Shown here piece after piece: positions 31,701-50,510 of a stretch of DNA of 64,000 bases. The translations under genes were made by a program, and so were the position numbers. A model generated the notes under the pieces. That model was not told the DNA's origin. It worked only from the letters and a program-made list of their open reading frames with translations, and did not search any database. Numbering within the stretch: the stretch's first letter is position 1; each line of letters opens with the position of its first letter. The DNA comes from Starkeya sp. ORNL1. Its GTDB lineage: Bacteria > Pseudomonadota > Alphaproteobacteria > Rhizobiales > Xanthobacteraceae. Location: assembly GCF_012971745.1 (NCBI RefSeq), contig NZ_CP048834.1:5589001-5653000 (forward strand), given 5' to 3'.

Positions 31701-32486
31701 GTGGACCTCGGACTTCAGCAGAAGACCGCACTCGTGTTCGGTGCTGGCGGCGGGCTCGGCGGCGCTATCGCGAAGGCGCTGGCAGCGGAAGGCGCGGCGG
31801 TGATCGTCGCCGACATCAATCTCGACGCCGCCAAGGCGACTGCCGCCGCGATCGCCGGTGCCGGCGGCCACTCCCGGCCCATCGGCTGGGATCTGGCGGA
31901 TCTGTCGGTGATCGAGGCGAACATCGCCGGCATCGAGGCTGATTTCGGCGGCGTGGACGTGCTCGTCAACAACACCGGCGGGCCACCCCCGACGCCGGCC
32001 GCCGGGCAGGATCCAGCCCTTTGGCTGAGCAGCTTCCAGTCGATGGTGCTCTCGGTCATCGCGATCACGGACCGCGTGCTGCCGAGCATGCGCGCGCGCA
32101 AATGGGGCCGGGTCATCACCTCGACCTCGTCCGGCGTTGTCGCGCCGATCGCCAATCTCGGCATCTCCAACGCGCTCAGGCTATCGCTGGTGGGCTGGTC
32201 GAAGACGCTGGCGCGTGAAGTCGGTCGCGACGGTGTGACCTGCAACATCGTGCTTCCCGGCCGCATCGCCACCCCACGCATCAGCTTCCTCGACGAGCGC
32301 AAGGCCGAGCGCGAGGGCCGCAGCGTCGCCGACGTCGCCGCCGAGAGCACCGGCTCCATCCCGGTCGGCCGCTACGGCGATCCGCAGGAATATGGCGACG
32401 TTGTCGCATTCCTCGCCAGCGCGCGCGCGTCCTACATCACCGGTTCGGTCATCCGCATCGATGGCGGCCTTATCCAGAGCATCTGA
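31701..32486 (+). CDS. SDR-family oxidoreductase with non-canonical active site
   Basis: The start is GTG 31701 (VDLGLQQKTALVFGAGGGLGGA, GGAGA upstream), giving 261 residues, normal for classical SDRs. The nucleotide-binding glycine motif and VLVNNTGGP are present, as is the Ser region TSTSSGVV. Where YxxxK is expected the sequence is NLGISNALR, so the catalytic Tyr and Lys are replaced. This recurs in an SDR subgroup with 'LxxSNxxR'. Its reaction is therefore uncertain. It is 8 bp upstream of an RraA-type gene. It is the first gene of the catabolic cluster. Confidence 0.82.
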   Translation: MDLGLQQKTALVFGAGGGLGGAIAKALAAEGAAVIVADINLDAAKATAAAIAGAGGHSRPIGWDLADLSVIEANIAGIEADFGGVDVLVNNTGGPPPTPAAGQDPALWLSSFQSMVLSVIAITDRVLPSMRARKWGRVITSTSSGVVAPIANLGISNALRLSLVGWSKTLAREVGRDGVTCNIVLPGRIATPRISFLDERKAEREGRSVADVAAESTGSIPVGRYGDPQEYGDVVAFLASARASYITGSVIRIDGGLIQSI

Positions 32487-32494
32487 GGAAACCA

Positions 32495-33205
32495 ATGGCA
32501 CTCGAACAAAGCGTCGTCGACACGCTCAAGGCAATCTCCACGGCGACGATCACCACTGTCCTGCTGAAGAAGGGGCTGCGCAATGTCTGGCTCCGCGGCA
32601 CCAAGCCGCTCGCGCCCGGCCAACCGCGCCTCGTCGGCCCGGCTTTCACGTTGCGCTTCGTTCCCGCCCGAGAGGATCTCGCCACGCCCGCAAGCTGGGC
32701 CTCGCCGATCTCCACGCGCGCCGCGATCGAGGCGATGCCGGCCGGCTGTATCGCCGTTGTAGACGCCATGGGCGTCACCGACGCCGGCATTTTCGGCGAC
32801 ATATTGTGCGCCCGCATGCTGAAGCGCGGCGTCGTCGCGCTGATCACCGACGGCGTGGTCCGTGACGTTGCCGGCGTGCTCGGCACCGGCCTTCCGGTCT
32901 GGTGCAACGGTGTCGCAGCCCCTCCTTCGGTCGCCGGGCTCACCTTCGTCGCCTGGCAGCAGCCGATTGCCTGCGGCGGCGTCGCGGTGTTCCCGGACGA
33001 CGTCATCGTGGTCGATGACGACGGCGCGGTGCTGATACCCGCCGCGCTGTTGCCCGAGGTCCTGGCCGAAGCACCGGAGCAGGAGCGGACTGAGGCCTGG
33101 ATCATGAACGAGGTTGGCCGCGATGTGCCGCTGCCCGGCCTCTATCCGATGAATGCGGATACCAAGGCCCGCTATGAGGCGGCGAAGAAGGACGGCACTG
33201 CCTGA
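32495..33205 (+). CDS. RraA-family protein (aldolase/decarboxylase type), copy 1
   Basis: The 236-residue protein starts at ATG 32495 with GAGG upstream. It is an RraA/HMG-aldolase fold: TATITTVLLKKGLRNVW, DILCARMLKRGVVALITDGVVRD and GGVAVFPDDVIVVDDDGAVL. The GD...D/R segment supports a metal-dependent retro-aldol or decarboxylase activity rather than RNase E control, which the cluster setting also favours. A paralogue with the same layout is at 39878-40594. The substrate is unknown. Confidence 0.82.
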   Translation: MALEQSVVDTLKAISTATITTVLLKKGLRNVWLRGTKPLAPGQPRLVGPAFTLRFVPAREDLATPASWASPISTRAAIEAMPAGCIAVVDAMGVTDAGIFGDILCARMLKRGVVALITDGVVRDVAGVLGTGLPVWCNGVAAPPSVAGLTFVAWQQPIACGGVAVFPDDVIVVDDDGAVLIPAALLPEVLAEAPEQERTEAWIMNEVGRDVPLPGLYPMNADTKARYEAAKKDGTA

Positions 33206-33210
33206 CGCAC

Positions 33211-33297
33211 GATGCGTCCGCCAAGGGCGCCTACGTCGTCGCCGCGACGCCCTTCCATCCGGACGGGCGCCTCGACACCCTGTCGGTCGACCGGCTA
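33211..33297 (+). pseudogene. Remnant of a DapA-family gene (N-terminal strand only)
   Basis: Directly after the RraA gene one frame reads KGAYVVAATPFHPDGRLDT then LSVDRL, which matches the first beta-strand and helix of the dihydrodipicolinate synthase/N-acetylneuraminate lyase family. The similarity stops after about 29 codons and the frame closes within about 100 bp, running into the promoter of the next gene. No start codon fits well. It looks like the leftover of a deleted gene, distinct from the intact DapA-family gene at 48627. Confidence 0.55.
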
Positions 33298-33392
33298 CCG
33301 ATTTCCAGGTCGGAGCCGGGAAACCTCATTGAGAGCGCCCGTCGCGGCACATATTGCCGAGGGCATTGTATAGCGGAGACAGTCTTATAAAA

Positions 33393-33403
33393 TCGTCTTA
33401 CAA
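33393..33403 (+). promoter_or_regulatory. Candidate GntR/FadR-type operator, site 1
   Basis: TCGTCTTACAA fits the FadR-subfamily pattern TNGTNNNACNA exactly. It is 50 bp upstream of the uronate-dehydrogenase-like gene and beside a TATAAA-like element. Related sites lie at 35427, 40632, 40781, 47763 and 49672. Confidence 0.55.
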
Positions 33404-33452
33404 GTTGTCGATTCCGCCGGAGATGCCTCCGGTTTGCTGAAGGGCTCCGCGA

Positions 33453-34262
33453 ATGGCGAATGACCGTCCTACCTTGTTCACCGGCGCGGGCGGCATTCTC
33501 GGCAAGTGGCTGCGGCCTAGGCTGATCGAGACATACGGCGCGCTGCGCTCGACCGACATCGTCGATTTTGGGCCGGCTTTGCCCGGCGAGGAAATCGTCA
33601 TCGCCGATCTCGCGGACGCCGCGGCGGTGGACCGTCTGGTGGAGGGCGCCGGGCGCATCATCCATTTCGGCGGCATCTCCTACGAGACCAGCTTCGACCG
33701 CATCCTGTCGTCCAACATTCTCGGCACCTACAATGTGTACGAGGCGGCGCGTCGCTTCGGGGCAGGGCCCATCGTCTATGCCAGCTCGAACCACGCCATC
33801 GGCTTCTACACGCGCGACGACCGGCTGGACGCCAATGTGCGCACCCGGCCGGACTCGCTCTATGGCGTGTCCAAGGCATTCGGCGAGGATCTGGCGAGCC
33901 TCTACTACGACAAATACGGCGTGGAGAGCGCGTGCCTGCGCATCGGCACCGCGCGGCTGGATCCGATCGACCCCCGCCATCTCTCCACCTGGCACAGCTA
34001 TGAGGACCTGCTGCGCCTGATCGAGGCGTGCTTCGCCGCGCCCCATCTCGGCTGCACCATCCTTTACGGCGTGTCGAACAATGACCGCTCCTGGTGGAGC
34101 AATGCGGCGGCGCCGAATGTGGATTACCGCCCGCAGGACAATGCCGAGAGCTTCAAGGATGCGCTCATCCCGGACGGCGACACGCGCGACATGGAAGATC
34201 CCGCGGTGAAGTACCAGGGCGGGCCGTTCATCACCCCCGGCTATGTGCCGCGCAAGGCCTGA
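33453..34262 (+). CDS. Uronate-dehydrogenase-like NAD(P)-dependent SDR
   Basis: The 269-residue extended-type SDR has TGAGGILGKWLRPRL as nucleotide motif, SSNHAIGFY as Ser region and YGVSKAFGED as the YxxxK motif. HFGGISYE, the ASSNHAIG block, and the SYEDLLRLIEACF ending are typical of Udh, which oxidises hexuronates to aldarolactones. Specificity is unproven, but a sugar-acid substrate fits the lactonase and aldolase homologues in the cluster. Its last 22 bp overlap the 3' end of the convergent PLP-enzyme gene. Confidence 0.8.
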   Translation: MANDRPTLFTGAGGILGKWLRPRLIETYGALRSTDIVDFGPALPGEEIVIADLADAAAVDRLVEGAGRIIHFGGISYETSFDRILSSNILGTYNVYEAARRFGAGPIVYASSNHAIGFYTRDDRLDANVRTRPDSLYGVSKAFGEDLASLYYDKYGVESACLRIGTARLDPIDPRHLSTWHSYEDLLRLIEACFAAPHLGCTILYGVSNNDRSWWSNAAAPNVDYRPQDNAESFKDALIPDGDTRDMEDPAVKYQGGPFITPGYVPRKA

Positions 34263-35377
34263 AGCGCGCCCGCCGCATCGCGGATGCGGGTGGCCAGCAA
34301 GGCGAGGCTGTCGGCGTCCAGCCGGCGGACGTCGACCTGCAACAGGCCGCGATCGGCGAGCAGGTCGCGCACGATGATGCGCGGCGTGCCGTTGGCGATG
34401 GCGCGGGCCAAGGCGTGGGCATTGCCGCCCGCCAGCGCCGGCGAGACCTCGAGGATCACCCGGTGGAACGGGTTGCCGGTCTCGTCGGGCACGATGGATG
34501 CGCCGATGCCGGGCAGGCCCTGCAACAGCGCGACCAGCCTTTCCGCACGCTCCAGCACCGCCGCCTGCACCGCTGCCTCGTCGCGGCGGCTCCAGCGTTG
34601 CATGGCGGCGATGGCGCCGATGACCGCCTCCTTGCCGGCCTTCATCGGGCGGCCGACGCCGTGGCGCTGGATGACGCAGGCGCGCACCAGATCGGCGCGC
34701 CCGGCGATGATGCCGGCGGTCGGGCCGCCCATGGCCTTCTGCCCGCTGAACAGCACCAGGTCGGCGCCGGCAGCGATGATGCCGGGCCAGTCATATTCGG
34801 CGGCGGCATCGACAATCACCGGCACGCCGGCGGCATGCGCCTCATGGATGAAATCCTTGAGCGCGATCATGCCGCTCTGCGCGGTGTGGTGGGAGACCAC
34901 ATAGAGCGCCGCCGCCGTGGCGGGACTGAGCGCGGCGCGCAGCTGGTATGGGGCGGCATCGAAGGCGGCGCCGATCTCGACCGGGCGGGCGCCGCTCAGC
35001 CTTATGTCGCCAGTGATCAGCGAGCCGTAGTTGACGACATGGCCCTTCTGCAGAACGATCTCGTTGCGCAGGCCCTGGGTGTCCGGCAGCCGCTCGGCGC
35101 GGCTGGCATCGTCGCCGGTCATGACCGCCGCCGCGGCGATGACGATGCTGGCCGAAGTGCAATTGGTGACGTAGCCGGCCTCAGCGCCGGTGACCCCGGC
35201 GATCACCCGGCTGGCGAGCGCCTGCAATTCGGCCATGTCGACGGAAACCGCCAATATGGCGGCGATCTCACTGATGATGTCGGCATGGACCGGGCTGGCG
35301 CCGAACACGGTTTCCGTGCCTGAGGCGTTCAGCAGCGGCGTGAGGCCATGGCGCGCGAGCAGATCGTCCCCGGACAC
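34241..35377 (-). CDS. SelA-fold PLP-dependent enzyme (D-glucosaminate-6-P ammonia-lyase-like)
   Basis: I place the start at GTG 35377 (VSGDDLLARHG, GGAGA upstream), giving 378 residues. It is a fold-type I PLP enzyme of the SelA/DgaE group. The N-terminus has LTPLLNASGTETVFGASP, the PLP region has VDAAAEYD, and the Schiff-base Lys is in LVLFSGQKAMGGP. It is not selenocysteine synthase: it sits in a catabolic cluster with no sel genes. The likely reaction is elimination of ammonia from an amino (sugar) acid. It is divergent from the next gene with an operator-like site between. Confidence 0.78.
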   Translation of the reverse strand: MSGDDLLARHGLTPLLNASGTETVFGASPVHADIISEIAAILAVSVDMAELQALASRVIAGVTGAEAGYVTNCTSASIVIAAAAVMTGDDASRAERLPDTQGLRNEIVLQKGHVVNYGSLITGDIRLSGARPVEIGAAFDAAPYQLRAALSPATAAALYVVSHHTAQSGMIALKDFIHEAHAAGVPVIVDAAAEYDWPGIIAAGADLVLFSGQKAMGGPTAGIIAGRADLVRACVIQRHGVGRPMKAGKEAVIGAIAAMQRWSRRDEAAVQAAVLERAERLVALLQGLPGIGASIVPDETGNPFHRVILEVSPALAGGNAHALARAIANGTPRIIVRDLLADRGLLQVDVRRLDADSLALLATRIRDAAGALQALRGT

Positions 35378-35426
35378 AGCGCTTTCTCCATCATCACGCT
35401 GGGCGTCTTGAGCTTCTTGCACGAAG

Positions 35427-35437
35427 CTGTCTGATAA
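35427..35437 (+). promoter_or_regulatory. Candidate GntR/FadR-type operator, site 2
   Basis: CTGTCTGATAA (two mismatches to TNGTNNNACNA) is followed by GTTTA, as at sites 3 and 5. It lies in the 100-bp divergent promoter between the SelA-fold gene and the D-threonine-aldolase-fold gene. Confidence 0.45.
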
Positions 35438-35477
35438 GTTTACAATTGTCCAGTCACAGCGGGCATGGGGAGCGCGG

Positions 35478-36776
35478 ATGTCGGCGATCGATCTGAGCGG
35501 GATCGAGGGCAGCCTTGTCGATGGCCGCACCAAGGGTCTTCCACCCGGCGCCGGGCCGTTGGCGCTGTCCGCGGTGGGCGGGCAGGGCTGGAACGTGCTG
35601 CGGGAAGATCTTCCCTTGCCGCTCGCCGTGCTGAAGCGCTCGGCGCTGGAGCGCAACAGCGCCTATATGCGCGGCTTCCTCGCCATGGCCGGCGCTAGCA
35701 TCGCGCCGCACGGCAAGACCACCATGTCGCCGCAACTGTTCGCCCGGCAGATCGCCGACGGCGCCTTCGCCATCACGCTCGCCACCGTGCAGCAGATCCG
35801 GGTGGCGCGCGAGTACGGCTTCGATCGCATCCTGCTCGCCAACCAGGTCACCGGGGCGCAGGCCGCGCGCTATATGGCCGAGGAGGTGGCGCGCGATCCC
35901 GACTTCCAGTTCTGGTCGTTCGTCGACTCGGTGGCCGGCGTCGAGCGCCTCGCCGCGGCGGTGAAGGCGGCCGGCGGCGGGCGCCCGCTCCGCGTCATAC
36001 TGGAAGGCGGCTTTCCCGGCGGGCGCACCGGCTGCCGCACGCTGGACGACGCGATGGAGGTCATGGCGGCGATCATCGCCGCCGCGCCCTATATCGAACT
36101 CAGCGGCGTCGGCGGCTATGAGGGGCTGCTGGCGGGCAAGGACGCGGCCGCGAGGGTCGATGGCTTCCTCGATTTCCTCGTCGAGATCGCGCTGGCCTGC
36201 GAGCAGCGCGGCGCCTTCGCGCCCGGCCCGATCCTGCTGACCGCCGGCGGATCGAGCTTTTACGACCTCGTCGCCGCCCGCTTCAAGGCGGCCGGCCTGT
36301 CGCGTACGTTCCAGGTGGTCATTCGCAGCGGCTGCTACCTCACCCATGATTCCGGCACCTATGAGGACCGCTTCCTCGATCTGCGCCAGCGCATGCCGGG
36401 GATCGACGGGCTGGACGTGCGCCCGGTCCACGCGCTCGAAGTTTGGGCCTATGTGCAGTCGCGCCCGGAGGCCGAGAAGGCCATCCTCGCCATGGGCAAG
36501 CGCGACGTGTCCTATGACTCGCGCATGCCGGAGCCGCTGTACTGGCACCGCCCGGGCCGCGCCGGGCCGCCGCTGCCGATCCCCGAGCGCCATGCCGTCG
36601 CCGGCCTCAACGACCAGCATTGCCATCTGGTGCTGCCGGCCGACAGCCCGCTCCAGGTCGGCGACATGGTGGCGTTCGGCATCTCGCATCCCTGTACCAC
36701 TTTCGACAAATGGCAGGTCATCCCGGTGGTCGATGACGATTATGCCGTGGTGGACGCCATCCGCACCTTCTTCTGA
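35478..36776 (+). CDS. D-threonine aldolase / D-serine dehydratase-fold PLP enzyme ('amino acid deaminase')
   Basis: The 432-residue fold-type III PLP protein has an N-terminal alanine-racemase-like barrel with the PLP Lys in IAPHGKTTMSPQ. The C-terminal D-serine-dehydratase-like domain carries metal ligands in LNDQHCHL and FGISHPCTTFDKW. GGGG-type ribosome-binding site upstream of ATG 35478. Members deaminate or cleave D-hydroxy-amino acids. RidA follows 35 bp later and would hydrolyse the enamine/imine product. The stereochemistry of the substrate here is inferred. Confidence 0.82.
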   Translation: MSAIDLSGIEGSLVDGRTKGLPPGAGPLALSAVGGQGWNVLREDLPLPLAVLKRSALERNSAYMRGFLAMAGASIAPHGKTTMSPQLFARQIADGAFAITLATVQQIRVAREYGFDRILLANQVTGAQAARYMAEEVARDPDFQFWSFVDSVAGVERLAAAVKAAGGGRPLRVILEGGFPGGRTGCRTLDDAMEVMAAIIAAAPYIELSGVGGYEGLLAGKDAAARVDGFLDFLVEIALACEQRGAFAPGPILLTAGGSSFYDLVAARFKAAGLSRTFQVVIRSGCYLTHDSGTYEDRFLDLRQRMPGIDGLDVRPVHALEVWAYVQSRPEAEKAILAMGKRDVSYDSRMPEPLYWHRPGRAGPPLPIPERHAVAGLNDQHCHLVLPADSPLQVGDMVAFGISHPCTTFDKWQVIPVVDDDYAVVDAIRTFF

Positions 36777-36811: not shown

Positions 36812-37282
36812 ATGAGCATGACGTTCGACGAGAAGCTGGCCGCCCTCGGCGCCGAGGTGCCCAATGCCACCGTGCCCGGCGCCAATTACGTTCCGGCGGT
36901 CGTGGTCGGCAACATCGTCTTCCTCGCCGGCCAGGTGCCGCGCCGCGACGACCGGCTGATGTGCGTCGGTCGCCTCGGCGAGAACCTCACGGTGGAGGAG
37001 GGCTATGCCGCCGCGCGGCTGTGCGCGCTCAATCTGGTGGTGCAGCTGCAGGCCGCCTGCGGCGGTTCGCTCTCCCGCGTGAAGCGCATCGCCAAGCTGA
37101 CCGGCTTCGTCAATGCGACGGCGGATTTCACCGATATGCCGAAGGTCATCAACGGCGCGTCCGACCTGTTCATCGAGATCTTCGGCGAGGCCGGGCGGCA
37201 TGCGCGCAGCGCGGTCGGCGCGCCGACCCTGCCGCGCGGCGTCGGCGTCGAGGTGGAAGCCATCGCCGAAATAGAACCCTGA
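36812..37282 (+). CDS. RidA-family enamine/imine deaminase
   Basis: The 156-residue protein is the longer YjgF/RidA type with N-terminal MTFDEKLAALGAEVPNATVP. The catalytic Arg lies in GRHARSAVGAPTLPRGVGVE and NIVFLAGQVPRR is the typical strand. It speeds hydrolysis of reactive 2-aminoacrylate-like enamines made by PLP enzymes. Two PLP lyases are encoded next to it, which explains its presence. Confidence 0.9.
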   Translation: MSMTFDEKLAALGAEVPNATVPGANYVPAVVVGNIVFLAGQVPRRDDRLMCVGRLGENLTVEEGYAAARLCALNLVVQLQAACGGSLSRVKRIAKLTGFVNATADFTDMPKVINGASDLFIEIFGEAGRHARSAVGAPTLPRGVGVEVEAIAEIEP

Positions 37283-37354: not shown

Positions 37355-39607
37355 ATGAACGCGCCGTTCGTCAGTTCTGAGGACACCCGCTCGGATCCCG
37401 CCGCGCCGCGCAACACACAGCGCGATCCCCGCTACGACATCCTGTTCGAGCCGGTCCGCATCGGCCCGAAGACCATGAAGAACCGCTTCTACCAGGTGCC
37501 GCAATGCACTGGCATCGGCCATGTGCGGCCGGGCTCCAATGCCGCGCATCGCGCGGTGAAGGCCGAGGGCGGCTGGGGTGGGCTCTGCACCGAATCCTGC
37601 TCGATCCACCCCGAGGTCAACCAGACGAGCTCGACCAATGCGACGATCTGGGACGAGGGCGATGTCATCAACCACCGCCACATGGTGGACGAGGTGCACA
37701 AATGGGGTGCGCTCGCCGCCGTGGAGCTCGGCGCCGGCGGCGTGAAGGACAATCTGTTCACCCGCTATGTCGCGCCGGCCTTCGACCGCTTTCCCTCCGG
37801 CGGCATCCCCAAGGTCTACACCTATCCCGCGGCGGAAGAGGACATCGACCGCGTCATGCAGATGTATGAGGACGCGGCGCGGCGCTCTCGCGATGCCGGC
37901 TTCGACATTCTCTATGTCCATGGCGCGGCGGGTGTGTTCCCGGTCCATGCGCTGTCGCGCCACTACAACCGGCGCACCGATAAATATGGCGGCTCGTTCG
38001 AGAACCGCGCCCGCTTCTGGGTCGAGGCGCTGGAGCGCCTGAAGAAGGTGGCGGGCGACGATTGCGCGGTGGCGACCCGCATCTCCATCGACGACCTTGC
38101 CGGCCCGTGGGGGCTGGAACTGCGCGACGAGGGGTTGGCCTTCGTCGAGTACATCACCAAGCTCGGCCTCGTCGACATGTGGGACGTCATCATCGGCGGC
38201 TCGGGCGAGGACATGTGGGGCGAGGATTCCGGCCCCTCGCGCTTCTACAAGTCCAACCACCAGGCGCCGTGGAATTCGGCGGTCAAGGCCATCGCCAATG
38301 TGCCGGTGGTTGGCGTCGGCCGCTTTACCGATCCCGACGAGATGGCGCGCATCGTGCGCACCGGCCAGCTCGACATCATCGGCTGCGCCCGCCCGTCGAT
38401 CGCGGATCCGTGGCTGCCCCGCAAGATCGACGAAGGCCGGGTGGACGATATCTGCGAGTGCATCGGCTGCAATGCCTGCATCTCCCGCTACAATATGAGC
38501 AACGCCATCATCTGCACCCAGAACCCGACCGCGCTGGAGGAATACCGGCGTGGCTGGCATCCCGAGCGCTTCGAGGCTACGCCGCATGCCAAGACCGTGC
38601 TGGTGGTCGGCGCCGGGCCTTCCGGCCTCGAATGCGCCCGCGTGCTCGGCCGCCGCGGCTACGATGTGCATCTGTGCGAGGCCAGGGACACCCTTGGCGG
38701 CCACATGCAGGACGTGGTGAAGCTGCCGGGCCTCGCCGAATGGGCGCGCGTGGTGCATTACCGCGAGAGCCAGATCCAGCGCATGGCCAACGTCACGCTG
38801 ATGCGCGGCACCGGGCTGGTGACGGCGGACGACATACTGGAATACGGCGCCTCGCGCGTGGTGCTGGCGAACGGCGCCTCCTGGGTCGGCAACGGGCTTG
38901 GCGCCAGCGGGCCGGACCCGGTGCCGGGCGTCGATGCAAGGCTCGATCACTTCGTCACGCCGGAACAATACTTCGCCGGCAAGCCGATCGGCGACCGCGT
39001 GGTGGTGATGGATTCCGACGGCTACTTCATGGCCATCGGCATCGCCGAGGCGCTGGTGGACCAGGGCAAGCACGTCACCCTCGTCACCCATTACGAGACG
39101 GTGGCGCCGATGACCGAGCGCACGCTTGAGGGCTACAACATCCGCCGCATGATGCGCGAGAAGGGCATCCATGAGCGGGTCGGCCATTGGGTCGAGGAGG
39201 TGCGCGGCGGCCCCGGCGCGGTCGAGGTCGTGCTTTATGACCGCTATCGCGACGGCTATCGCCGCACCACGCAGCCTGAGACCGGCGTGTATCCGCGCCG
39301 GGTCGGCGACGCGGTCGAGGTGCTGGCCTGCGACACCGTCGTGCTGTGCACGGCGCGCGAGTCGAAGCGCGAGCTTTACGACGCTTTGGTCGCGCGCAAG
39401 GAGCGCTGGGCGGATGTCGGCCTGGAAGTGGTGGTGCGCTCCGGCGATTGCCTCGCCCCGCGCTATCTGGCCGATGCCATTTTCGACGGCCACCGCATCG
39501 CCCGCGAATTCGAGAGCGTCAATCCCGAGCGCCCGCGCGCTATCATCCGCGAGCGCATGATCTGGGGCGTCGAGACCATCCCGAAGCTGGGCGATCACGT
39601 ACTGTGA
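37355..39607 (+). CDS. Trimethylamine dehydrogenase-like FMN/4Fe-4S/ADP flavoprotein
   Basis: The 750-residue three-domain enzyme has an OYE-like FMN barrel (about 25-365), a [4Fe-4S] motif Cys369-x2-Cys372-x2-Cys375-x12-Cys388 as in TMADH, and a C-terminal Rossmann pair (VLVVGAGPSGLECARVL). The Cys that carries covalent 6-S-cysteinyl FMN in TMADH is present (QVPQC). Compared from memory with TMADH, the substrate-bowl aromatics differ (TESCS for TEYCS, ISRY for ISRW, YVHGAAG for YVYGAHS). A different amine, perhaps an N-methyl or N-alkyl amino acid, is therefore likely. It may oxidatively dealkylate the cluster's substrate. Confidence 0.85.
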   Translation: MNAPFVSSEDTRSDPAAPRNTQRDPRYDILFEPVRIGPKTMKNRFYQVPQCTGIGHVRPGSNAAHRAVKAEGGWGGLCTESCSIHPEVNQTSSTNATIWDEGDVINHRHMVDEVHKWGALAAVELGAGGVKDNLFTRYVAPAFDRFPSGGIPKVYTYPAAEEDIDRVMQMYEDAARRSRDAGFDILYVHGAAGVFPVHALSRHYNRRTDKYGGSFENRARFWVEALERLKKVAGDDCAVATRISIDDLAGPWGLELRDEGLAFVEYITKLGLVDMWDVIIGGSGEDMWGEDSGPSRFYKSNHQAPWNSAVKAIANVPVVGVGRFTDPDEMARIVRTGQLDIIGCARPSIADPWLPRKIDEGRVDDICECIGCNACISRYNMSNAIICTQNPTALEEYRRGWHPERFEATPHAKTVLVVGAGPSGLECARVLGRRGYDVHLCEARDTLGGHMQDVVKLPGLAEWARVVHYRESQIQRMANVTLMRGTGLVTADDILEYGASRVVLANGASWVGNGLGASGPDPVPGVDARLDHFVTPEQYFAGKPIGDRVVVMDSDGYFMAIGIAEALVDQGKHVTLVTHYETVAPMTERTLEGYNIRRMMREKGIHERVGHWVEEVRGGPGAVEVVLYDRYRDGYRRTTQPETGVYPRRVGDAVEVLACDTVVLCTARESKRELYDALVARKERWADVGLEVVVRSGDCLAPRYLADAIFDGHRIAREFESVNPERPRAIIRERMIWGVETIPKLGDHVL

Positions 39608-40791: not shown

Positions 40792-40897
40792 GTTTATGAA
40801 TTATTGACAGGTCCGGTACGTCATGCAAGCCTTCGAACCAAGGCTGAAGTAACGGTGGGAATTTCCCAATTCGACTGGTTGAACAGCGGAGGTTGTC

Positions 40898-42953: not shown

Positions 42954-43940
42954 GTGTTCAGCTTCATCCTTCGCCGCCTGCTTTGGATGATCCCGTCCTT
43001 CTTCGCGGTGTCGGTCGTCGCCTTCACCATCATCCAGTTGCCGCCGGGCGATTTCGTCACGAGCTACGCCGCCGACCTCGCCACGTCCGGCTCGCCCGCG
43101 GACCCCGCGACGCTCGACGCCATGCGGCTGCGCTACGGCCTCGACCAGCCGATGGTGGTCCAGTATTTCCGCTGGGTCGGCAATGCGCTCCACGGCGATC
43201 TCGGCATGTCGTTCGAGTATCGCACCCCGGTCGCCGACATCATCTGGAACCGGCTGGGCATGACGGCGCTGGTCGCCTTCTGCACCTTGCTGTTCGTGTG
43301 GATCGTCGCGTTTCCGATCGGGGTCTATTCCGCCGTCCGGCAATACAGCATCGGCGACTACATCATCACCTTCCTCTGCTTCCTCGGCATGGCGACGCCG
43401 AACTTCCTGCTCGCCCTGTTCGTCATGTACCTGTCGGTCGAGTTCCTCGGCTATTCGGTCGGCGGGCTGTTCTCGCCGGATTATGTGAACGCGCCGTGGG
43501 ATCTCGGCCGGGTGGGGGACCTGCTCACCCATCTGTGGATCCCGGTGGTGGTGCTCGGCGTCGCCGGCATCGCTTCGCTGGTGCGCATCATGCGCGCCAA
43601 CCTGCTCGACGAGCTCGGCAAGCCCTATGTCGAGACCGGCCGCGCCAAGGGCCTGCCGGAGCTGAAGCTGATCCTGCGCTATCCGACGCGGGTGGCGCTC
43701 AATCCCTTCATCTCGACGGTCGGCTGGATCCTGCCGGTGCTGGTGTCGGGCGACGTGATCGTCTCCAGCGTGCTGAGCCTGCCCACCGCCGGGCCGATCC
43801 TGATCCAGGCGCTGAAGACGCAGGACATGTATCTCGGCGGCGCCCTCATCATGTTCCAGTGCATCCTGGTGCTGATCGGCACGCTGCTGTCGGACATCCT
43901 GCTCGTGTGGTTCGACCCGCGGATCCGCTATGACAACTGA
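42954..43940 (+). CDS. ABC transporter permease (DppB-type)
   Basis: The start is GTG 42954 with AGGAGG upstream (MFSFILRRLLWMIPSFFAV), giving 328 residues. It has about six helices. The EAA loop is ETGRAKGLPELKLILRYPTRVALNP. It forms the inner-membrane channel with the next permease, which overlaps by 11 bp. Longer upstream frames would run into the hairpin and the binding-protein gene. Confidence 0.9.
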   Translation: MFSFILRRLLWMIPSFFAVSVVAFTIIQLPPGDFVTSYAADLATSGSPADPATLDAMRLRYGLDQPMVVQYFRWVGNALHGDLGMSFEYRTPVADIIWNRLGMTALVAFCTLLFVWIVAFPIGVYSAVRQYSIGDYIITFLCFLGMATPNFLLALFVMYLSVEFLGYSVGGLFSPDYVNAPWDLGRVGDLLTHLWIPVVVLGVAGIASLVRIMRANLLDELGKPYVETGRAKGLPELKLILRYPTRVALNPFISTVGWILPVLVSGDVIVSSVLSLPTAGPILIQALKTQDMYLGGALIMFQCILVLIGTLLSDILLVWFDPRIRYDN

Positions 43941-45090
43941 CGCGTCCCCGCCAACCGCGCTGCTGCCGGACCTGCCGCCAAACGTCCCGGCACTGGCACA
44001 CAAGGGCTCCGCCTCGCAGTGGCAGCTCATGTGGTGGCAGTTCCGCCGCCACCGGCTGGCCATGGTGAGCACCGTCGTGCTGGCCTTCATCCTGCTGGTG
44101 GCGGTGTTCTGCGAGTTCCTGGCACCGTTCTCGCCGAACGCCTTCACCCCGCGCTACACCTTTGCGCCGCCGCAGGCGCTGCATTTCTTCGACCGCGATG
44201 CCGAGGGCAGCCTGGTATGGCGCCCCCACGTCAATGGCTACAAGGTGACCATCGAGCCGACCGCGCTGCGCCGCATCTTCGTGGTCGACGAGAGCCAGAA
44301 ATATCCGGTCGGCTTCTTCGTGAAGTCGGATCCCTACGACATGTGGGGGATCTTCACGCTGGAGACCAAGCTGTTCGGGCCGCTGAAGAAAGGCGACCCG
44401 ATGTATCTGCTCGGCGCCGACCGCCTCGGCCGCGACATGCTGAGCCGGATCATCTACGGCACCCGCATTTCCATGTCGATCGGCCTCATCGGCGTGGCGC
44501 TGAGCCTGGTGCTCGGCATCATCCTCGGCGGCATATCGGGCTATTATGGCGGCTGGGTCGACAACATCATCCAGCGCGTCATCGAGTTCATCCTGTCGCT
44601 GCCGACCACCCCGCTCTGGCTTGGCCTTGCCGCCGCCATGCCGACCAACTGGCCGCCGCTGCGCATCTATCTCGCCATCACCATCATCCTCTCGCTGATC
44701 GGCTGGACCAACCTGGCGCGGGTGATACGCGGGCGCTTCCTGTCGCTGCGCACCGAGGATTTCGTCACCGCCGCGCGGCTGGACGGGGCGAGCGAGCCGC
44801 GCATCATCTTCCGCCAGATGGCGCCGTCCTTCGTCAGCCACATCATTGCCGAGGTGAGCCTCGCCATCCCGGCCATGATCCTCGCCGAGACCGCCCTGAG
44901 CTTCCTCGGCCTCGGGCTGCAGCCGCCGATCGTGAGCTGGGGGGTGCTGCTGCAGGAGGCGCAGAATATCCGCTCCATCACCACCGCGCCCTGGCTGTTC
45001 TTCCCCGGCATTGCGGTGGTGATCGCGGTGCTTTCCCTGAATTTCGTCGGCGACGGCCTGCGCGACGCCGCCGACCCCTACCGGCAATAG
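43930..45090 (+). CDS. ABC transporter permease (DppC-type)
   Basis: The 386-residue DppC/OppC-type permease has the usual N-terminal OppC_N helix (about 45-65), then a long periplasmic insertion (about 70-160) that explains its above-average length, and five helices. The EAA loop is TAARLDGASEPRIIFRQMAPS. It ends FVGDGLRDAADPYRQ, typical of DppC. It is coupled to the upstream permease by overlap. Confidence 0.9.
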   Translation: MTTDASPPTALLPDLPPNVPALAHKGSASQWQLMWWQFRRHRLAMVSTVVLAFILLVAVFCEFLAPFSPNAFTPRYTFAPPQALHFFDRDAEGSLVWRPHVNGYKVTIEPTALRRIFVVDESQKYPVGFFVKSDPYDMWGIFTLETKLFGPLKKGDPMYLLGADRLGRDMLSRIIYGTRISMSIGLIGVALSLVLGIILGGISGYYGGWVDNIIQRVIEFILSLPTTPLWLGLAAAMPTNWPPLRIYLAITIILSLIGWTNLARVIRGRFLSLRTEDFVTAARLDGASEPRIIFRQMAPSFVSHIIAEVSLAIPAMILAETALSFLGLGLQPPIVSWGVLLQEAQNIRSITTAPWLFFPGIAVVIAVLSLNFVGDGLRDAADPYRQ

Positions 45091-45091
45091 C

Positions 45092-46834
45092 ATGGCAGAG
45101 CGCATGACCAGCGGGCCCGACGACATCGTGCTGGAGGTGAAGAACCTGTCGACCTGGTTCGACACCGGCCGCGACGTGCTGAAGGCGGTCGACGGCATCG
45201 ACCTCACGCTCAGGCGTGGGCGCACGCTGTGCGTGGTGGGCGAGAGCGGCTCGGGCAAGAGCATCACCGCGCGCTCGATCCTCAACATCGTGCCGAAGCC
45301 CGGCCGCATCATGGGCGGCGAGATATTGCTGCACGGCGCCGGCCCGGACGGCACCGCGCTGAACCTTGCCGCGCTCGACCCCAAGGGCCGGCAGATCCGC
45401 GCGATCCGCGGCCGCGACATCGGCATGATCTTCCAGGAACCGATGTCGAGCCTGAGCCCGGTCCACACCATCGGCCACCAGATCACCGAGGCCATCCGCC
45501 TGCACCGCCCGATGAGCCGGGCGCAGGCCCGCGAGCGGGCGATCGAGATGCTGGCGCAGGTGAAGATCCCGCGTCCGGAGCAGAGCTTCGACAGCTATCC
45601 GTTCGAGTTCAGCGGCGGCATGCGCCAGCGCGCCATGACCGCGATGGCGCTGGTGTGCGAGCCCAAGCTGCTGATCGCCGACGAGCCGACCACCGCGCTG
45701 GACGTGACCACGCAGGCCGAAATCCTCGATCTGATGAAGGGGCTGCAGAAGCTCCACGGCATGGCGCTGATGTTCATCACCCACGACATGGGCGTGGTCG
45801 CCGAGATCGCCGACGACGTGGCGGTGATGTACCGCGGCAAGGTGGTGGAGCACGGCCCGGTCGACGACATCTTCTTCGCGCCCCGGCACGCCTACACCAA
45901 GCAATTGCTGAATTCGGTGCTGGCGCTGGAGCAGCGCTCGCACCTTGCCGGCAAGACGGCGAAGTCGAACCGCGACGACGCCATCCTCGACGTGTCGAAC
46001 CTGTCGATGTCGTTCGGCGGCCGGCAGCCCTTCTTCGGCCGCAAGCAGGAGGGGCCGGTGAAGGCGCTCGACAATGTCAGCTTCTCGCTCAAGCGCGGCG
46101 AGACGCTCGGCATCGTCGGCGAGAGCGGGTCCGGCAAGACCACGCTCGGGCGCTGCATCATGCGCATCCTCGACCCGACCTCCGGCCAGATCGTCTTCAA
46201 GGGCCGGGACAGCGCCGGCGTCGATCTCGCCCCGCTGCCGCGCTCCGCGGTCAAGCCGTACTGGCGCGACATGCGGATGATCTTCCAGGATCCGTTCTCC
46301 TCGCTCAATCCGCGCATGACGGTGCTGCAGATCGTCGCCGAACCGCTGCGCAACCACGGCATCGTGCACGGCCCGGAGCTGGAGGAGCGCGTGGCCGAAC
46401 TGCTCCAGCGCGTCGGCCTGCCGCGCGAGGCGATGCGCCGCTATCCGCACGCCTTCAGCGGCGGCCAGCGCCAGCGCATCGGCATCGCCCGGGCCATCGC
46501 GCTGAAGCCGCAGCTCATCGTCGCCGACGAGGCGACCTCGGCGCTCGACGTGTCGCTGCGCGCGCAGGTGCTCGACCTGCTGCTCGACATCGGCCAGGAG
46601 CTGGACATGAGCTACGTGTTCATCAGCCACGACATCGGGGTGATCCGCTACATGTGCGACCGCGTGGCGGTGATGCATCGCGGCCGCATCGTCGAGCTCG
46701 GCGAGACGCAGTCGGTGTGCGACGACCCGCAGCACGCCTATACGCGCTCGCTGATCTCTGCCATCCCCAAGCCTGATCCGCGCCAGCGCGGCAGGACCAC
46801 CCGCATCCGCTATGAGCTGGAAACCGCGCCCTGA
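45092..46834 (+). CDS. ABC transporter double ATP-binding protein (DppD-DppF fusion)
   Basis: The 580-residue protein holds two nucleotide-binding domains in one chain. The first (about 10-290) has GESGSGKS, FSGGMRQR and LLIADEPTTALD. The second (about 300-575) has GESGSGKTT, FSGGQRQR and LIVADEATSALD. Both oligopeptide-type C-terminal extensions are present in abbreviated form. It starts 1 bp after the permease stop. It powers uptake by the family-5 binding protein. Confidence 0.92.
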   Translation: MAERMTSGPDDIVLEVKNLSTWFDTGRDVLKAVDGIDLTLRRGRTLCVVGESGSGKSITARSILNIVPKPGRIMGGEILLHGAGPDGTALNLAALDPKGRQIRAIRGRDIGMIFQEPMSSLSPVHTIGHQITEAIRLHRPMSRAQARERAIEMLAQVKIPRPEQSFDSYPFEFSGGMRQRAMTAMALVCEPKLLIADEPTTALDVTTQAEILDLMKGLQKLHGMALMFITHDMGVVAEIADDVAVMYRGKVVEHGPVDDIFFAPRHAYTKQLLNSVLALEQRSHLAGKTAKSNRDDAILDVSNLSMSFGGRQPFFGRKQEGPVKALDNVSFSLKRGETLGIVGESGSGKTTLGRCIMRILDPTSGQIVFKGRDSAGVDLAPLPRSAVKPYWRDMRMIFQDPFSSLNPRMTVLQIVAEPLRNHGIVHGPELEERVAELLQRVGLPREAMRRYPHAFSGGQRQRIGIARAIALKPQLIVADEATSALDVSLRAQVLDLLLDIGQELDMSYVFISHDIGVIRYMCDRVAVMHRGRIVELGETQSVCDDPQHAYTRSLISAIPKPDPRQRGRTTRIRYELETAP

Positions 46835-46870: not shown

Positions 46871-47749
46871 ATGAGCCAGCCTGACGTCGACTGCGTGCTC
46901 GATATAAGGGCCGAGCTTGGCGAATGCCCGGTCTGGTCGCCGCGCGAGAATGCGCTCTACTGGATCGACATATATGCTGGCCGGCTGAACCGCTTCGACC
47001 CGTCGAGCGGCGCCAACCGGGTGTGGACGCTGCCCGAGCCGATCGGCTCGTTCGCACTGTGCGAGGATGGCGGCGTGCTGCTGGCGCTGAAATCGGGCCT
47101 CGCCCGCTACGATCTGGCGAGCGGCGCGCTCAACCTGCTGGCAAGCCCGGAGCCCGATCTGCCGGGCAACCGGTTGAATGACGGGCGCTGCGATTTCCAG
47201 GGCCGCTTCTGGGTCGGCAGCATGGCGGACCCGGTGCAGCCGTCGCGCGCCATGGGATCGCTCTACCGCTTCGGTGCCGACCATCGCTGCGTGCCGGCCT
47301 GCGACGGGCTGTTCGTCGCCAACGGCCTCGCCTTCAGCCCGGACGGGCGCACGCTCTATCACTCGGATTCCTATGCGCCGGTGCGCACCATCTGGGCATG
47401 GGACCTTGACGCCGACGACGGCGCCATCACCAACCGCCGCGTCTTCGTCGACACCCACGGCATGCCCGGCCGCCCGGACGGCGGCGCGGTCGATGCCGAC
47501 GGCTGCTACTGGACGGCGGCCAATGATGGCTGGGAGATCGTCCGCTTCACGCCGAAGGGTGAGGTCGATCGCCGCATCGCGCTGCCGGTCGCCAAGCCGA
47601 GCATGCTGGCGTTCGGCGGCCCGCGCCTCGACACCATCTATGTCACCTCGATCCGGCCGGCCGCGGTGGAGGGCCAGCCGCAGGCCGGCAGCCTGTTCGC
47701 GGTGCATGCCGGCGTCACCGGAGTCATGGAACCGTTATTCAAGGGATAA
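46871..47749 (+). CDS. SMP-30/gluconolactonase-family lactonase
   Basis: The 292-residue six-bladed beta-propeller shows ELGECPVWSPRENALYWIDI (metal-binding Glu and first blade), NRLNDGRCDFQGRFWVGSM, and FVANGLAFSPDGRTLYHSDS. It hydrolyses sugar-acid lactones with a divalent metal. A uronate-dehydrogenase-like enzyme in the cluster would make such a lactone. Start ATG 46871 has GAGG upstream. It ends the transporter operon. Confidence 0.87.
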   Translation: MSQPDVDCVLDIRAELGECPVWSPRENALYWIDIYAGRLNRFDPSSGANRVWTLPEPIGSFALCEDGGVLLALKSGLARYDLASGALNLLASPEPDLPGNRLNDGRCDFQGRFWVGSMADPVQPSRAMGSLYRFGADHRCVPACDGLFVANGLAFSPDGRTLYHSDSYAPVRTIWAWDLDADDGAITNRRVFVDTHGMPGRPDGGAVDADGCYWTAANDGWEIVRFTPKGEVDRRIALPVAKPSMLAFGGPRLDTIYVTSIRPAAVEGQPQAGSLFAVHAGVTGVMEPLFKG

Positions 47750-47762
47750 TATAGAGCTTTAC

Positions 47763-47773
47763 TTGTCGGACGA
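47763..47773 (+). promoter_or_regulatory. Candidate GntR/FadR-type operator, site 4 (regulator promoter)
   Basis: TTGTCGGACGA fits TNGTNNNACNA exactly. It lies between the lactonase stop and the GntR gene, 95 bp upstream of the latter, consistent with autoregulation. Confidence 0.55.
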
Positions 47774-47867: not shown

Positions 47868-48623
47868 TTGGCCCGGAAACCCGCCGAACTCAAGCTGCGG
47901 CACAGGATGGAATGGCCCTCGCAGGCGCCGCAGCGGCCCTCCCGCCTCGGCGACCAGCTCTATGAGCAGATACTCGACCGCATCGTCACCGGTTCGATGG
48001 TGGAAGGCGACAAGCTGCCGTCCGAGAGCCAGCTCTCTGAAATCTATGGCGTTTCCCGTCCCGTGGTGCGCGAGGCGCTCTCCCGCCTGCAGGCCGACGG
48101 CGTTGTGGTCTCGCGCCACGGCTCCGGCTCGTTCGTCCAGCGCCGGCCCAACCAGGCGCTGTCTCAGCTGGCGCCGATCGGCGATGTCGCCGACCTGATG
48201 CGCTGCATGGAGTTCCGCGTCGCGCTGGAGGGCGAGTCCGCCTTCCTCGCGGCGCTGCGCCGAACCCCAGCGGATCTTGATCGAATCAAGCGCGCCTATG
48301 ACGACCTGGAGCGGGTGATCGCCAATGAGGAGATCGGCAGCGAGGCCGACCAGGCGTTCCATATCGCCATCGCCGCCGCCACGCAGAACCGCCTGTTCGT
48401 GCACGCCATGGACGTGTTCGGCGAGCACACGCTGCGCGGCATCGAGCTTGCCCGCAAGCTGTCGCTCCGCCGCAGTGCGCGACGGCTGCAGACGGTGCAG
48501 ATGGAGCATCTGCGCATCATGAAGGCGATCGAGGCCGAAGAGGCGGAAGAGGCGCGCGAGGCGATGCGCACCCATATCGACAATGCCCGCATCCGCGTGC
48601 TGACCGACAGCACCGAGCCGTAA
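47868..48623 (+). CDS. GntR/FCD (FadR subfamily) transcriptional regulator of the catabolic cluster
   Basis: The 251-residue protein starts at TTG 47868 behind AGGAGG. The winged HTH (about 25-90) reads LGDQLYEQILDRIVTG, LPSESQLSEIYGVSRPVVRE and VVVSRHGSGSFV. The all-helical FCD ligand domain (about 105-240) has metal-type His residues in DQAFHIAIA and MRTHIDNAR. FadR-type proteins are usually repressors released by a pathway metabolite and bind TNGTNNNACNA. Six such sites lie in the surrounding cluster, including one upstream of this gene. Confidence 0.88.
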   Translation: MARKPAELKLRHRMEWPSQAPQRPSRLGDQLYEQILDRIVTGSMVEGDKLPSESQLSEIYGVSRPVVREALSRLQADGVVVSRHGSGSFVQRRPNQALSQLAPIGDVADLMRCMEFRVALEGESAFLAALRRTPADLDRIKRAYDDLERVIANEEIGSEADQAFHIAIAAATQNRLFVHAMDVFGEHTLRGIELARKLSLRRSARRLQTVQMEHLRIMKAIEAEEAEEAREAMRTHIDNARIRVLTDSTEP

Positions 48624-48626
48624 TCT

Positions 48627-49544
48627 CTACGCGGCGATCTGGCCCAGTGTGCCGCTGAACGTGTTCAGCGCACGCGCCACGGGCGCCACGCGCTCGCGCG
48701 CCTCCGGCTCCAGGTTCGACAGCAGCGGCAATATGGGGCCCATGTCGGCGATGCCGGCGAGGCTCACGCCGTCATGCAGCACCCGGATCGGGTTGATGGT
48801 GTCGCGCAGGGTTTCGAACGGCAGGAAGGCCGCGCGCAGCCGTTCCGCTGTCTCATAGTCCCCGGCCTTCAACGCTTCGAGCACGGCGGTGGAGGCGCGC
48901 GGTGCAATCGAAACCGAGCCCGAGGTGAAGGCGTGAAGGCCGAATTCGCGCCAGTGGATGATGGCCGGGCGCTCGCCTATGCCGCTGATGATACGGGACT
49001 TGTCCATCCGCTCGATGAGCTCGGCGAGGAAGCTGTCCTCGCTCGGATCGTCGCGCACGATGGCGTATTTGACCGCGGTGACCAGGCCCTTGTCGACGAG
49101 GCGGGCGATCGCCGCCGGCGACAGGTAGTTCTCCGCGCGGACATAGGCGATGACCGGCTTGCCGAGGCGCTCGGCGAAGCGGGCAATGCCGTTCTCCGCG
49201 CCGGCGACCGTCGAGGCGACCGACGCGGGAAGCACCATGGCGGTCGGAAACGGCCGCGCGCGCAGCGCCTCGACCTGATCCATCATCTTGCCGAAATCCG
49301 GCCCGACCGAGGGAATGATCCAGCTTCCGGGGGAGGCCAGTTCCAGCAGCATGTCGAGCGTGGCGGCATATTCGCCGGCCGGGATATTGTAGAAATTGGC
49401 GTTGCCGCCATACATCAGCGTCGAGACGCCGCCCTGCTCCATATGCCGGATCAGCGCCGCATTCGCCGCGCGATTGAGCGTGAGATCGGTGTTCCGGGCG
49501 AGCGGAGGTACCGCTACGACCGATTTCGTCAGATCGCCGTGCAT
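48627..49544 (-). CDS. DapA-family lyase/dehydratase
   Basis: The start is ATG 49544 (MHGDLTKSVVAVPPLARN, weak AAAGAG site), giving 305 residues. It is a class I aldolase-like TIM barrel of the dihydrodipicolinate synthase/N-acetylneuraminate lyase group. The Schiff-base Lys lies in GLVTAVKYAIVRDDP and GVSTLMYGGNANFYN replaces the usual GTTGE loop. Pyruvate aldolase or keto-deoxy-sugar-acid dehydratase activity is plausible. It is convergent with the regulator gene, 3 bp away. Confidence 0.85.
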   Translation of the reverse strand: MHGDLTKSVVAVPPLARNTDLTLNRAANAALIRHMEQGGVSTLMYGGNANFYNIPAGEYAATLDMLLELASPGSWIIPSVGPDFGKMMDQVEALRARPFPTAMVLPASVASTVAGAENGIARFAERLGKPVIAYVRAENYLSPAAIARLVDKGLVTAVKYAIVRDDPSEDSFLAELIERMDKSRIISGIGERPAIIHWREFGLHAFTSGSVSIAPRASTAVLEALKAGDYETAERLRAAFLPFETLRDTINPIRVLHDGVSLAGIADMGPILPLLSNLEPEARERVAPVARALNTFSGTLGQIAA

Positions 49545-49671
49545 GGTCGCTCTTTCATGGCCGGCGATGAAGGCCGGTGTGCCACCCTCCCGGCAGGCGC
49601 CACCTCGGCACGACCGGATCGTGTGTCGCATTCTAGGGTGGCGCCCCGGGCTGTCAAGGCAAGGCGTAAAC

Positions 49672-49682
49672 TTGTCTTACAT
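49672..49682 (-). promoter_or_regulatory. Candidate GntR/FadR-type operator, site 5
   Basis: On the minus strand ATGTAAGACAAGTTTACGC; the core ATGTAAGACAA fits TNGTNNNACNA with one mismatch. It overlaps the stop codon of the amidohydrolase gene and lies about 128 bp upstream of the DapA-family gene. Confidence 0.5.
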
Positions 49683-50510
49683 CTCGGGAGGCGAAATCCC
49701 GAGGATGCGTGCCGCGGTGCCACCCATCACCAGGTCGCGCTCGCGGCCGGTGAGGCCCGGGAAATTCGCGCCCCACGCAATGGCATCCGCATACGAGCAA
49801 ACCGTGCCGACGCCGGGATAATCCGAGCCGAACATGGTGCGCGCGGCGCCGAAGCGCTCCAGCACGGCGCTGTAGAAGGGGATGATGTCGGCGAACGGGT
49901 AGGGGGTTCGCGCATCTTCCGCCACGCACAGCAGCTTGAAACAGACGTTCTCCCGTGCGGCAAGCAAATCGAGATAGGACACGGCGTCGGTTCGGCCATG
50001 AATGCCGGCGCCGAGATAGTCGACGATGAAGGGCGTGGACGGATAGCGCGCCGCGAGCGCGGCGATGACCGGAGCCTGATCGATATCCATGTGGAAGGAC
50101 AGCGAGAGCCTGTGGGCGGCGACGGCTTCGAACAGCGGCCGGCGCTCGTCGGCTGCCAGCCACGAGGCATCGCCCTGGCGGATGAGATTGAAGCGCAGCC
50201 CTTTGCACCCGCCGGGGCCGCACCATCGGGCGAGATCGTCATAGGGGCGGGTCGAGCGTGGGTCTATCAGGCAAATGCCGACGAAGCGCTGCGGCCAGGC
50301 GGCGAGGCAGGCCATCAGATAGCGATTGTCCCAGCCATACACGCTCGGCTGCACCAGCACGACGCGATCGACGCCCGCGCTATCCATATCCGCCAGCAGC
50401 ATCTCGACCGGGGCGGCGATTGTCGGCGGCGGCACATGCGCGAGGATAGGCTGCCAGGGGTATTCCCGAACATCGCCGGACCAGACATGGGTGTGCGCGT
50501 CAATAATCAT
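49677..50510 (-). CDS. LigI-like amidohydrolase (TIM-barrel lactonase)
   Basis: The 277-residue protein starts at ATG 50510 with GAGGGAAG upstream. The metal-site motif is DAHTHVWSGD at the N-terminus; further His in LSFHMDID and Asp in MFGSDYPGVG complete the amidohydrolase_2 pattern. Relatives hydrolyse 2-pyrone-4,6-dicarboxylate or sugar lactones. With the SMP-30 enzyme it would give the cluster two lactonases. A 12-bp direct repeat lies just upstream. Confidence 0.85.
   Translation of the reverse strand: MIIDAHTHVWSGDVREYPWQPILAHVPPPTIAAPVEMLLADMDSAGVDRVVLVQPSVYGWDNRYLMACLAAWPQRFVGICLIDPRSTRPYDDLARWCGPGGCKGLRFNLIRQGDASWLAADERRPLFEAVAAHRLSLSFHMDIDQAPVIAALAARYPSTPFIVDYLGAGIHGRTDAVSYLDLLAARENVCFKLLCVAEDARTPYPFADIIPFYSAVLERFGAARTMFGSDYPGVGTVCSYADAIAWGANFPGLTGRERDLVMGGTAARILGISPPEM

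Follow-up and report, generated by a model that had tools for sequence, protein, structure and literature searches.

In the oxidative pathway of bacterial uronate catabolism, uronate dehydrogenase (Udh) produces a lactone, which is processed either by Gli and Gci or by the lactonases UxuL/UxuF, and KdgD acts next (PMC6353982). The substrate-binding protein SPH1118 binds galacturonate (PMC9314435), and FlDet, an RraA-family enzyme, converts 2-keto-3-deoxy-D-glucarate to alpha-ketoglutarate semialdehyde (KGSA) as a dehydratase/decarboxylase (PMC8563752). Here we compare with these systems a catabolic gene cluster of Starkeya sp. ORNL1, located in a 64-kb stretch of DNA (the window; positions 5,589,001-5,653,000 of contig NZ_CP048834.1, a single-contig genome of 6.29 Mb). 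The cluster is a real, conserved and probably co-regulated module, and we regard it as a form of the oxidative uronate pathway to which a nitrogen branch has been added. It is likely that uronate chemistry and C-N chemistry act here on one substrate. Our more specific proposal is tentative: a GntR-controlled module would import and oxidatively degrade a uronic acid bearing an amine, probably N-alkylated, at or near C2.

The genes of the cluster, in window coordinates, are the following (PLP, pyridoxal 5'-phosphate; DTA, D-threonine aldolase; TMADH, trimethylamine dehydrogenase; ABC, ATP-binding cassette; ORF, open reading frame).

33453..34262, plus strand: Udh-like uronate dehydrogenase (269 bits to a mutated uronate dehydrogenase; 257 bits to the Agrobacterium-entry set 3rft/3rfv)
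34241..35440, minus strand: SelA-fold, DgaE-like PLP enzyme, start uncertain (239 bits to DGL, 7lc0; 296 bits to NF047797)
35478..36776, plus strand: DTA-fold PLP enzyme, a putative ammonia-lyase for amino sugar acids (PF14031; 346 bits to 3gwq)
36812..37282, plus strand: RidA-family imine/enamine hydrolase (PF14588, PF01042)
37355..39607, plus strand: TMADH-type flavoprotein with altered pocket (TMADH is the best solved structure, 734 bits)
39878..40594, minus strand: RraA2, an RraA-family enzyme (PF03737, 121.9 bits; NF006093)
40898..42877, plus strand: SPH1118-like substrate-binding protein (438 bits to SPH1118)
42954..43940, plus strand: permease (PF00528; likely start, the ORF opens at 42732)
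43930..45090, plus strand: permease (PF00528, PF12911)
45092..46834, plus strand: fused ABC ATPase (two ABC_tran stretches)
46871..47749, plus strand: SMP-30 family lactonase, predicted activity (PF08450, 289 bits)
47868..48623, plus strand: GntR-FCD regulator (PF00392, PF07729)
48627..49631, minus strand: DapA-family lyase (PF00701; likely start 49544)
49677..50510, minus strand: COG3618-type amidohydrolase of the lactonase fold group (PF04909; structure model nearest to 4dlf, 2ffi and 4mup)

Like the oxidative uronate pathway, the cluster has a Udh with a kept active site, members of lactonase families with predicted activity, an importer for acidic sugars and a GntR regulator. It differs in having no Gci/MLE, close KdgD or KGSA dehydrogenase, and in adding a PLP lyase, RidA, the flavoprotein and RraA2. 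Pfam and NCBIfam scans found no Gci (MLE) or aldarate dehydratase among the cluster genes.

Conservation of the gene set

After merging of duplicate entries (L034 = G021, L035 = G003, L061 = G304), seven distinct clusters were available: the window, a metagenome-assembled Xanthobacteraceae genome (L034/L026), Bosea sp. 117 (L035/L027), Rhizobiales bacterium Y(2018) (L036), Taklimakanibacter lacteus (L061), Aestuariivirga sp. YIM B02566 (L062), and G064 (L028). The DTA-like protein of G064 has an identical match that bears the name Rhodoligotrophos appendicifer. Twelve genes are kept in all seven: those for Udh, the DTA-like enzyme, RidA, the TMADH-like flavoprotein, RraA2, the binding protein, two permeases, the ATPase, SMP-30, GntR and the COG3618 amidohydrolase. 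The DapA-like gene is present in six and absent from L034, and the SelA-like gene occurs in three. Gene order follows two main arrangements, with one further cluster shuffled. Six other alphaproteobacterial genomes carry the set, and its units have an operator-like motif in common, so its assembly is beyond chance.

A preliminary description of the window had placed a catabolic cluster at 31,701-50,510. Gene calls with Pfam and NCBIfam scans recovered all the enzyme families it had listed: SDR, two RraA proteins, Udh-like, SelA-fold, DTA-fold with a D-ser_dehydrat domain, YjgF/RidA and TMADH-like, together with SBP_bac_5, two permeases, the fused ATPase, SMP-30, GntR-FCD, the DapA family and Amidohydro_2. 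The span stands for 33,453-50,510. Its left end does not, because the SDR gene (about 31,701-32,486) and RraA1 (32,495-33,205) have no motif site and lie beside the cluster in one of seven cases; the supported left edge is thus Udh at 33,453, and the two genes are probably not members of the module. Of the genes whose co-occurrence had been suggested as a check, the TMADH-like, Udh-like and RraA2 genes are found together in 7/7 clusters, the SelA-fold gene in 3/7, and RraA1 lies alongside in 1/7.

Flavoprotein matches at E<=1e-60 were found in 15 of 101 related genomes, Starkeya included; four of them, again with Starkeya, are at least 83% identical and 11 at most 49%. A scan of GTDB contigs with the flavoprotein gave 47 loci, five of which match along almost the entire protein with an identity of at least 82%; the other 42, many on short contigs, showed no more cluster genes beyond matches of at most 35% to common families. 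The binding protein is at least 82% identical in three of 397 genomes of the order, namely Starkeya itself, G304 and G064. A 76% flavoprotein (P0147) and a 62% DTA-like protein (P0037) probably come from one genome.

Adjacency within the clusters hints at functional pairs (start positions were extrapolated for the gaps given here). RidA is the same-strand neighbor of the flavoprotein gene in all seven, with gaps of -43 to 84 bp, which suggests that RidA handles the imine formed by the flavoprotein. RidA accompanies the flavoprotein and not solely the PLP lyase; the DTA-like gene adjoins RidA in three clusters. In four of the seven the DTA-like gene lies immediately 5' of RraA2 (gap 19 to 35 bp), and RraA2 may therefore take the product of the PLP enzyme.

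Shared motif and putative regulon

Five operator-like sites were found in the window, scored with a matrix built from other loci.

33395..33405, plus strand: upstream of udh (25.1 bits)
35429..35439, plus strand: gap between the SelA-like and DTA-like genes (37.8 bits)
40783..40793, plus strand: gap between RraA2 and the binding-protein gene (41.0 bits)
47761..47771, minus strand: before GntR, the weakest (15.3 bits, below the best score of one of 20 shuffles)
49670..49680, minus strand: upstream of the DapA-like gene, touching the end of the amidohydrolase gene (17.5 bits)

A search for exact dyads in the cluster gaps revealed nothing in common. The core GTCYKAYAAGT was spotted by eye in the gaps; it has five matches in the window versus 1.81 expected, a count reached or exceeded in 5 of 100 shuffles, and by itself this count is weak. 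The matrix was derived from 13 promoter sites in five other loci, with the window and its near-copy L034 excluded and L036 and L062 given half weight; the pattern by which these sites were chosen had been noticed initially in the window, and the orthologous promoters are among them in part. It was scanned over the 64 kb, and 20 block-shuffled windows (single-letter shuffles within 100-base blocks) served as controls. The five best places all fall within or at the edge of cluster gaps, the next best scoring 4.9. The shuffled windows peak at 16.8, and four of the five sites exceed all of them. In L036 and L062, three divergent promoters serve all 13 genes and each carries one motif site. The motif carries weight because it precedes different transcription units and all three divergent promoters of these two loci. 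A pattern fitted to the sites, YGNYTKAYAAGTT, occurs three times genome-wide, each time in the cluster, versus four occurrences of the reversed control pattern. The candidate sites also resemble operators of FCD regulators (TNGTNNNACNA). Judged from sequence, the locus is probably co-regulated, with GntR as the candidate regulator.

The binding protein and the predicted uronate dehydrogenase

The binding protein is 38.6% identical to SPH1118 (233 of 604 aligned residues). In all seven clusters it keeps N53, R57, E216, R466, E505, F592 and W594; six of these residues touch the reducing-end uronate in SPH1118 and F592 touches the next two rings, while E216 contacts the free O1 and Arg496 contacts O2 and O3 (PMC9314435). 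None of 29 distinct other relatives keeps all seven residues, and the best keep five. The cluster proteins differ from SPH1118 by R496T, R438L, D483F, V484L and N324D. At site 496 Thr is found in 7/7 clusters, and Arg, Lys and Gln in 27, 1 and 1 of the other relatives. The last four substitutions alter subsites 2 and 3, and the surroundings of C5/C6 are unchanged. The kept subsite 1 and the Arg496-to-Thr change suggest a uronate with a free C1 and an altered group at C2 or C3. Retention of Glu505 with loss of the arginine would suit a positive charge at C2/C3. The binding protein makes the question of the substrate directly testable.

The Udh active site is kept in six of the seven clusters. 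For comparison, 30 further Udh-like rows (29 distinct) were used; of the columns that 90% of them conserve, three (67, 106 and 224) are changed in all clusters, and none of the three is known to be a catalytic residue. Tyr77, beside Ser76, is present in 7/7 cluster rows versus 0/30 other rows. By position, Ser76 should match Ser74, the residue that faces C2 in the Agrobacterium enzyme (PMC4476818). A search of the Starkeya genome at E<=1e-50 returned a single Udh match, the one in the window.

The flavoprotein and the PLP enzymes

The flavoprotein is homologous to TMADH over its full length. It keeps C30 (the 6-S-Cys-FMN attachment, FMN being flavin mononucleotide), four 4Fe-4S cysteines, R222, W264 and D267, where W264 is the sole retained member of the TMADH aromatic bowl. 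All pocket sites compared (60, 74, 105, 169, 172, 175 and 355) are changed in the six clusters checked (all except L028). The cluster proteins have S, N, G, H, A, F and Y/F at these sites, TMADH has Y, S, W, Y, H, L and W, and two rows of the dimethylamine dehydrogenase (DMADH) type, from Paracoccus aminovorans and Methylophaga, have Q, T, F, Y, H, G and W; the roles of the sites are assumed. The kept cofactor residues point to an amine dehydrogenase, and the changed pocket makes trimethylamine an unlikely substrate. A TMADH or DMADH function was rejected on the same pocket residues.

The S-x-G-H-A pocket occurs in 46 of 121 flavoprotein rows; four further rows have gaps at these sites, and the remaining 71, none above 67% identity, have other pockets. 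The GTDB scan had given the impression of a gap in the family below 82%, which was refuted by a graded series from 84% to 55% among the 120 matches listed from a protein database. Some sources label proteins of this subfamily as dimethylamine/trimethylamine dehydrogenase. The proposal offers a testable function for a subfamily that carries this name and has another pocket.

Among solved structures the DTA-like protein comes closest to 3gwq, which bears the name D-serine deaminase; among database entries, the closest to the DTA-like protein (93%) is named Xanthobacteraceae bacterium. The family alone is no pointer to sugars, because 19 loci of homologs at 49% identity or more have no Udh, SMP-30 or HpcH neighbor, and of seven loci at about 40% one has a weak HpcH match (26%). 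RidA is nearby in three of the 19, and SBP5 and SDR genes occur together in one. Among eight plasmid loci with DTA-like genes, two carry SMP-30, SDR, RidA and an HpcH-type aldolase, two a D-aminoacylase, and four neither. The first pair had hinted at a sugar-acid link of the family as a whole, which the 26 loci did not bear out. These two are L118 (Agrobacterium larrymoorei plasmid) and L119 (Novosphingobium capsulatum plasmid), where the DTA-like "amino acid deaminase" accompanies RidA, the HpcH-type aldolase, SDR and SMP-30; L118 also carries GH88 and GH28, and both are possible amino-sugar oxidation loci.

The SelA-like protein has the fold of DgaE/DGL, is nearest to DGL, and carries His-His and Lys (SGQK) motifs that may correspond to His162-His163 and Lys217 of DGL (PMC9529869). 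It differs in scoring 296 bits against a family cut-off of 600, and genes for sugar phosphates are absent from the cluster. At L083, L084 and L085, in Aureimonas, Martelella and Aminobacter, the neighbors of the SelA-like homologs are an importer of the dipeptide type, a gene of the deacetylase family, RidA and IclR.

RraA2, the DapA-like enzyme and related uronate loci

FlDet belongs to the RraA family, as does RraA2, and acts on the intermediate proposed below. This likeness is at the level of the family only, and FlDet differs in belonging to alginate breakdown in Flavobacterium. The DapA-like protein is 55% identical to a Thalassospira protein whose gene adjoins a separate kdgD, near Udh.

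Two loci combine the same type of importer with sugar-acid genes. L122 (G257) has Udh, SMP-30, GntR, an amidohydrolase and canonical Gci- and KdgD-like proteins, the MLE and KdgD proteins being 57% and 58% identical to those of a Salipiger pectin locus. An Agrobacterium plasmid has SMP-30, an FCD regulator, a DapA-family gene and a "galactarate dehydratase". A canonical galacturonate locus was also looked for elsewhere in the Starkeya genome; the best MLE homologs sit with FMN dehydrogenase and HpcH aldolase genes and without Udh. At L195 (3,412,000-3,431,900 of the genome), an MLE-family protein with 54% identity to its Salipiger counterpart is encoded together with an HpcH aldolase and two FMN-dependent dehydrogenases.

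Proposed pathway and alternatives

What can be read from the sequences is gene linkage, a common motif, a kept uronate subsite and Udh active site, and an altered flavoprotein pocket; the substrate, step order and products that follow are conjectural. The SPH1118-type ABC importer would take up the amino-uronate. The TMADH-type flavoprotein would then oxidize the C-N bond in an N-dealkylation, with RidA hydrolyzing the imine, and Udh would oxidize C1 to give an aldarolactone. Opening of the lactone by SMP-30, the COG3618 enzyme or both would yield a 2-amino-2-deoxyaldarate. From this compound the DTA-fold enzyme, and in this lineage the DgaE-like enzyme too, may eliminate ammonia and the C3 hydroxyl to give a 2-keto-3-deoxyaldarate, which RraA2 and/or the DapA-like enzyme could convert to KGSA or to pyruvate and tartronate semialdehyde. 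A PLP ammonia-lyase and RraA would thus replace Gci/KdgD. We propose an amino-uronate because a PLP lyase acting on a 2-amino-2-deoxyaldarate would yield a 2-keto-3-deoxyaldarate, the substrate class of FlDet.

That catabolism of an N-methylated (or other N-alkyl) 2-amino-2-deoxyhexuronate is encountered here for the first time, with the flavoprotein turned amino-sugar N-demethylase and a PLP lyase and RraA replacing Gci/KdgD under one GntR, is rather doubtful. No paper was found that names both "uronate dehydrogenase" and "trimethylamine dehydrogenase" in a search with coverage of few subscription journals, and among the literature matches listed, no pathway of amino-uronate catabolism appeared in the titles and opening parts of the abstracts. 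If the proposal is true, nitrogen elimination joins the bacterial ways to 2-keto-3-deoxyaldarates, and a nitrogenous uronic acid is predicted in nature, an unrecognized environmental amino-uronate.

Several observations weigh against the amino-uronate route. We know of no N-alkyl amino-uronate that is a common nutrient. In 19 of 19 loci of DTA-like homologs at 49% identity or more (385 genomes of the class; two loci are fragments and several are cut by contig ends), no Udh, SMP-30 or HpcH lies within about 7 kb. In a quick tree (SH-aLRT 98) the two cluster versions do not have sister DTA-like proteins, so this gene may have been recruited twice. In Bosea sp. 117 Udh has Met at the SDR (short-chain dehydrogenase/reductase) catalytic Lys, and the amidohydrolase, whose structure model was built on six sequences (pLDDT 78.5), is only 29% identical to that of Salipiger. 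The DapA-like protein is 22-25% identical to KdgD-type references and scores 41 bits against the KdgD cut-off of 278; it belongs to another subfamily, and its assignment to the canonical KdgD step was dropped. The route does not account for the retention of both RraA2 and the DapA-like enzyme. Finally, KGSA dehydrogenase was not found in the Starkeya genome with one query at E<=1e-60, a search without a positive control.

The preliminary description had envisaged an opine-like conjugate that is split and broken down as two separate halves. Of this view, one probably co-regulated locus that combines uronate and C-N chemistry is supported. In the conjugate scenario, which we regard as unlikely, an amine links a uronate to a part resembling an amino acid; the flavoprotein and RidA split the C-N bond, Udh, the lactonases, DapA and RraA take the uronate half, and the DTA-like and SelA-like enzymes deaminate a D-amino acid. 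Every gene family fits it, as do the D-serine deaminase name of 3gwq and the D-aminoacylase beside two plasmid DTA-like relatives, and the binding-protein subsites 2-3, being different from those of SPH1118, could hold another group. However, the DTA-like gene directly before RraA2 suggests a sugar-acid product, and the kept subsite residues include E216, the contact of the free O1. Since a single-uronate subsite is kept and the DTA-like gene precedes RraA2 in 4/7 clusters, one amino sugar acid degraded on one route fits somewhat better.

Less probable again are two ordinary pathways sharing a locus and a regulator, one for a plain uronate and the other for an amine or D-amino acid, each with its own substrate. 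The importer type does occur elsewhere with uronate or sugar-acid genes and without nitrogen genes, and the Udh active site is ordinary. Membership is nevertheless constant in 7/7 clusters despite rearrangement, with one importer, one regulator and one motif; Thr at site 496 is peculiar to these clusters, and the window cluster lacks Gci, aldarate dehydratase and KdgD. It is very improbable that the nitrogen sits elsewhere (at C3, at C5 or in the ring) and is removed as a primary amine by the flavoprotein, with the PLP enzymes acting later or on a side product. Histamine dehydrogenases come next after TMADH in the structure search, and Arg496 contacts O3 besides O2, which would agree with such a position; but PLP elimination requires an amine alpha to a carboxylate, which is what C2 becomes after Udh, and the residues near C5 and C6 are unchanged.

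Flanking genes

The SDR and RraA1 genes (31701-33205) are perhaps a separate sugar-acid pair; among the seven clusters they stand beside the cluster only in the window. The GC content of the window changes at 28 kb, from about 0.57-0.64 on the left to about 0.64-0.73 on the right. ORFs at 17,280-23,957 resemble, judged by eye, formate dehydrogenase subunits; two MoeA-type genes follow at 28,234-31,442. On the other side, 50818-52529 holds an ECF sigma factor and FecR-type genes, 3' of which lie ORFs that by eye resemble a TonB receptor and an iron importer.

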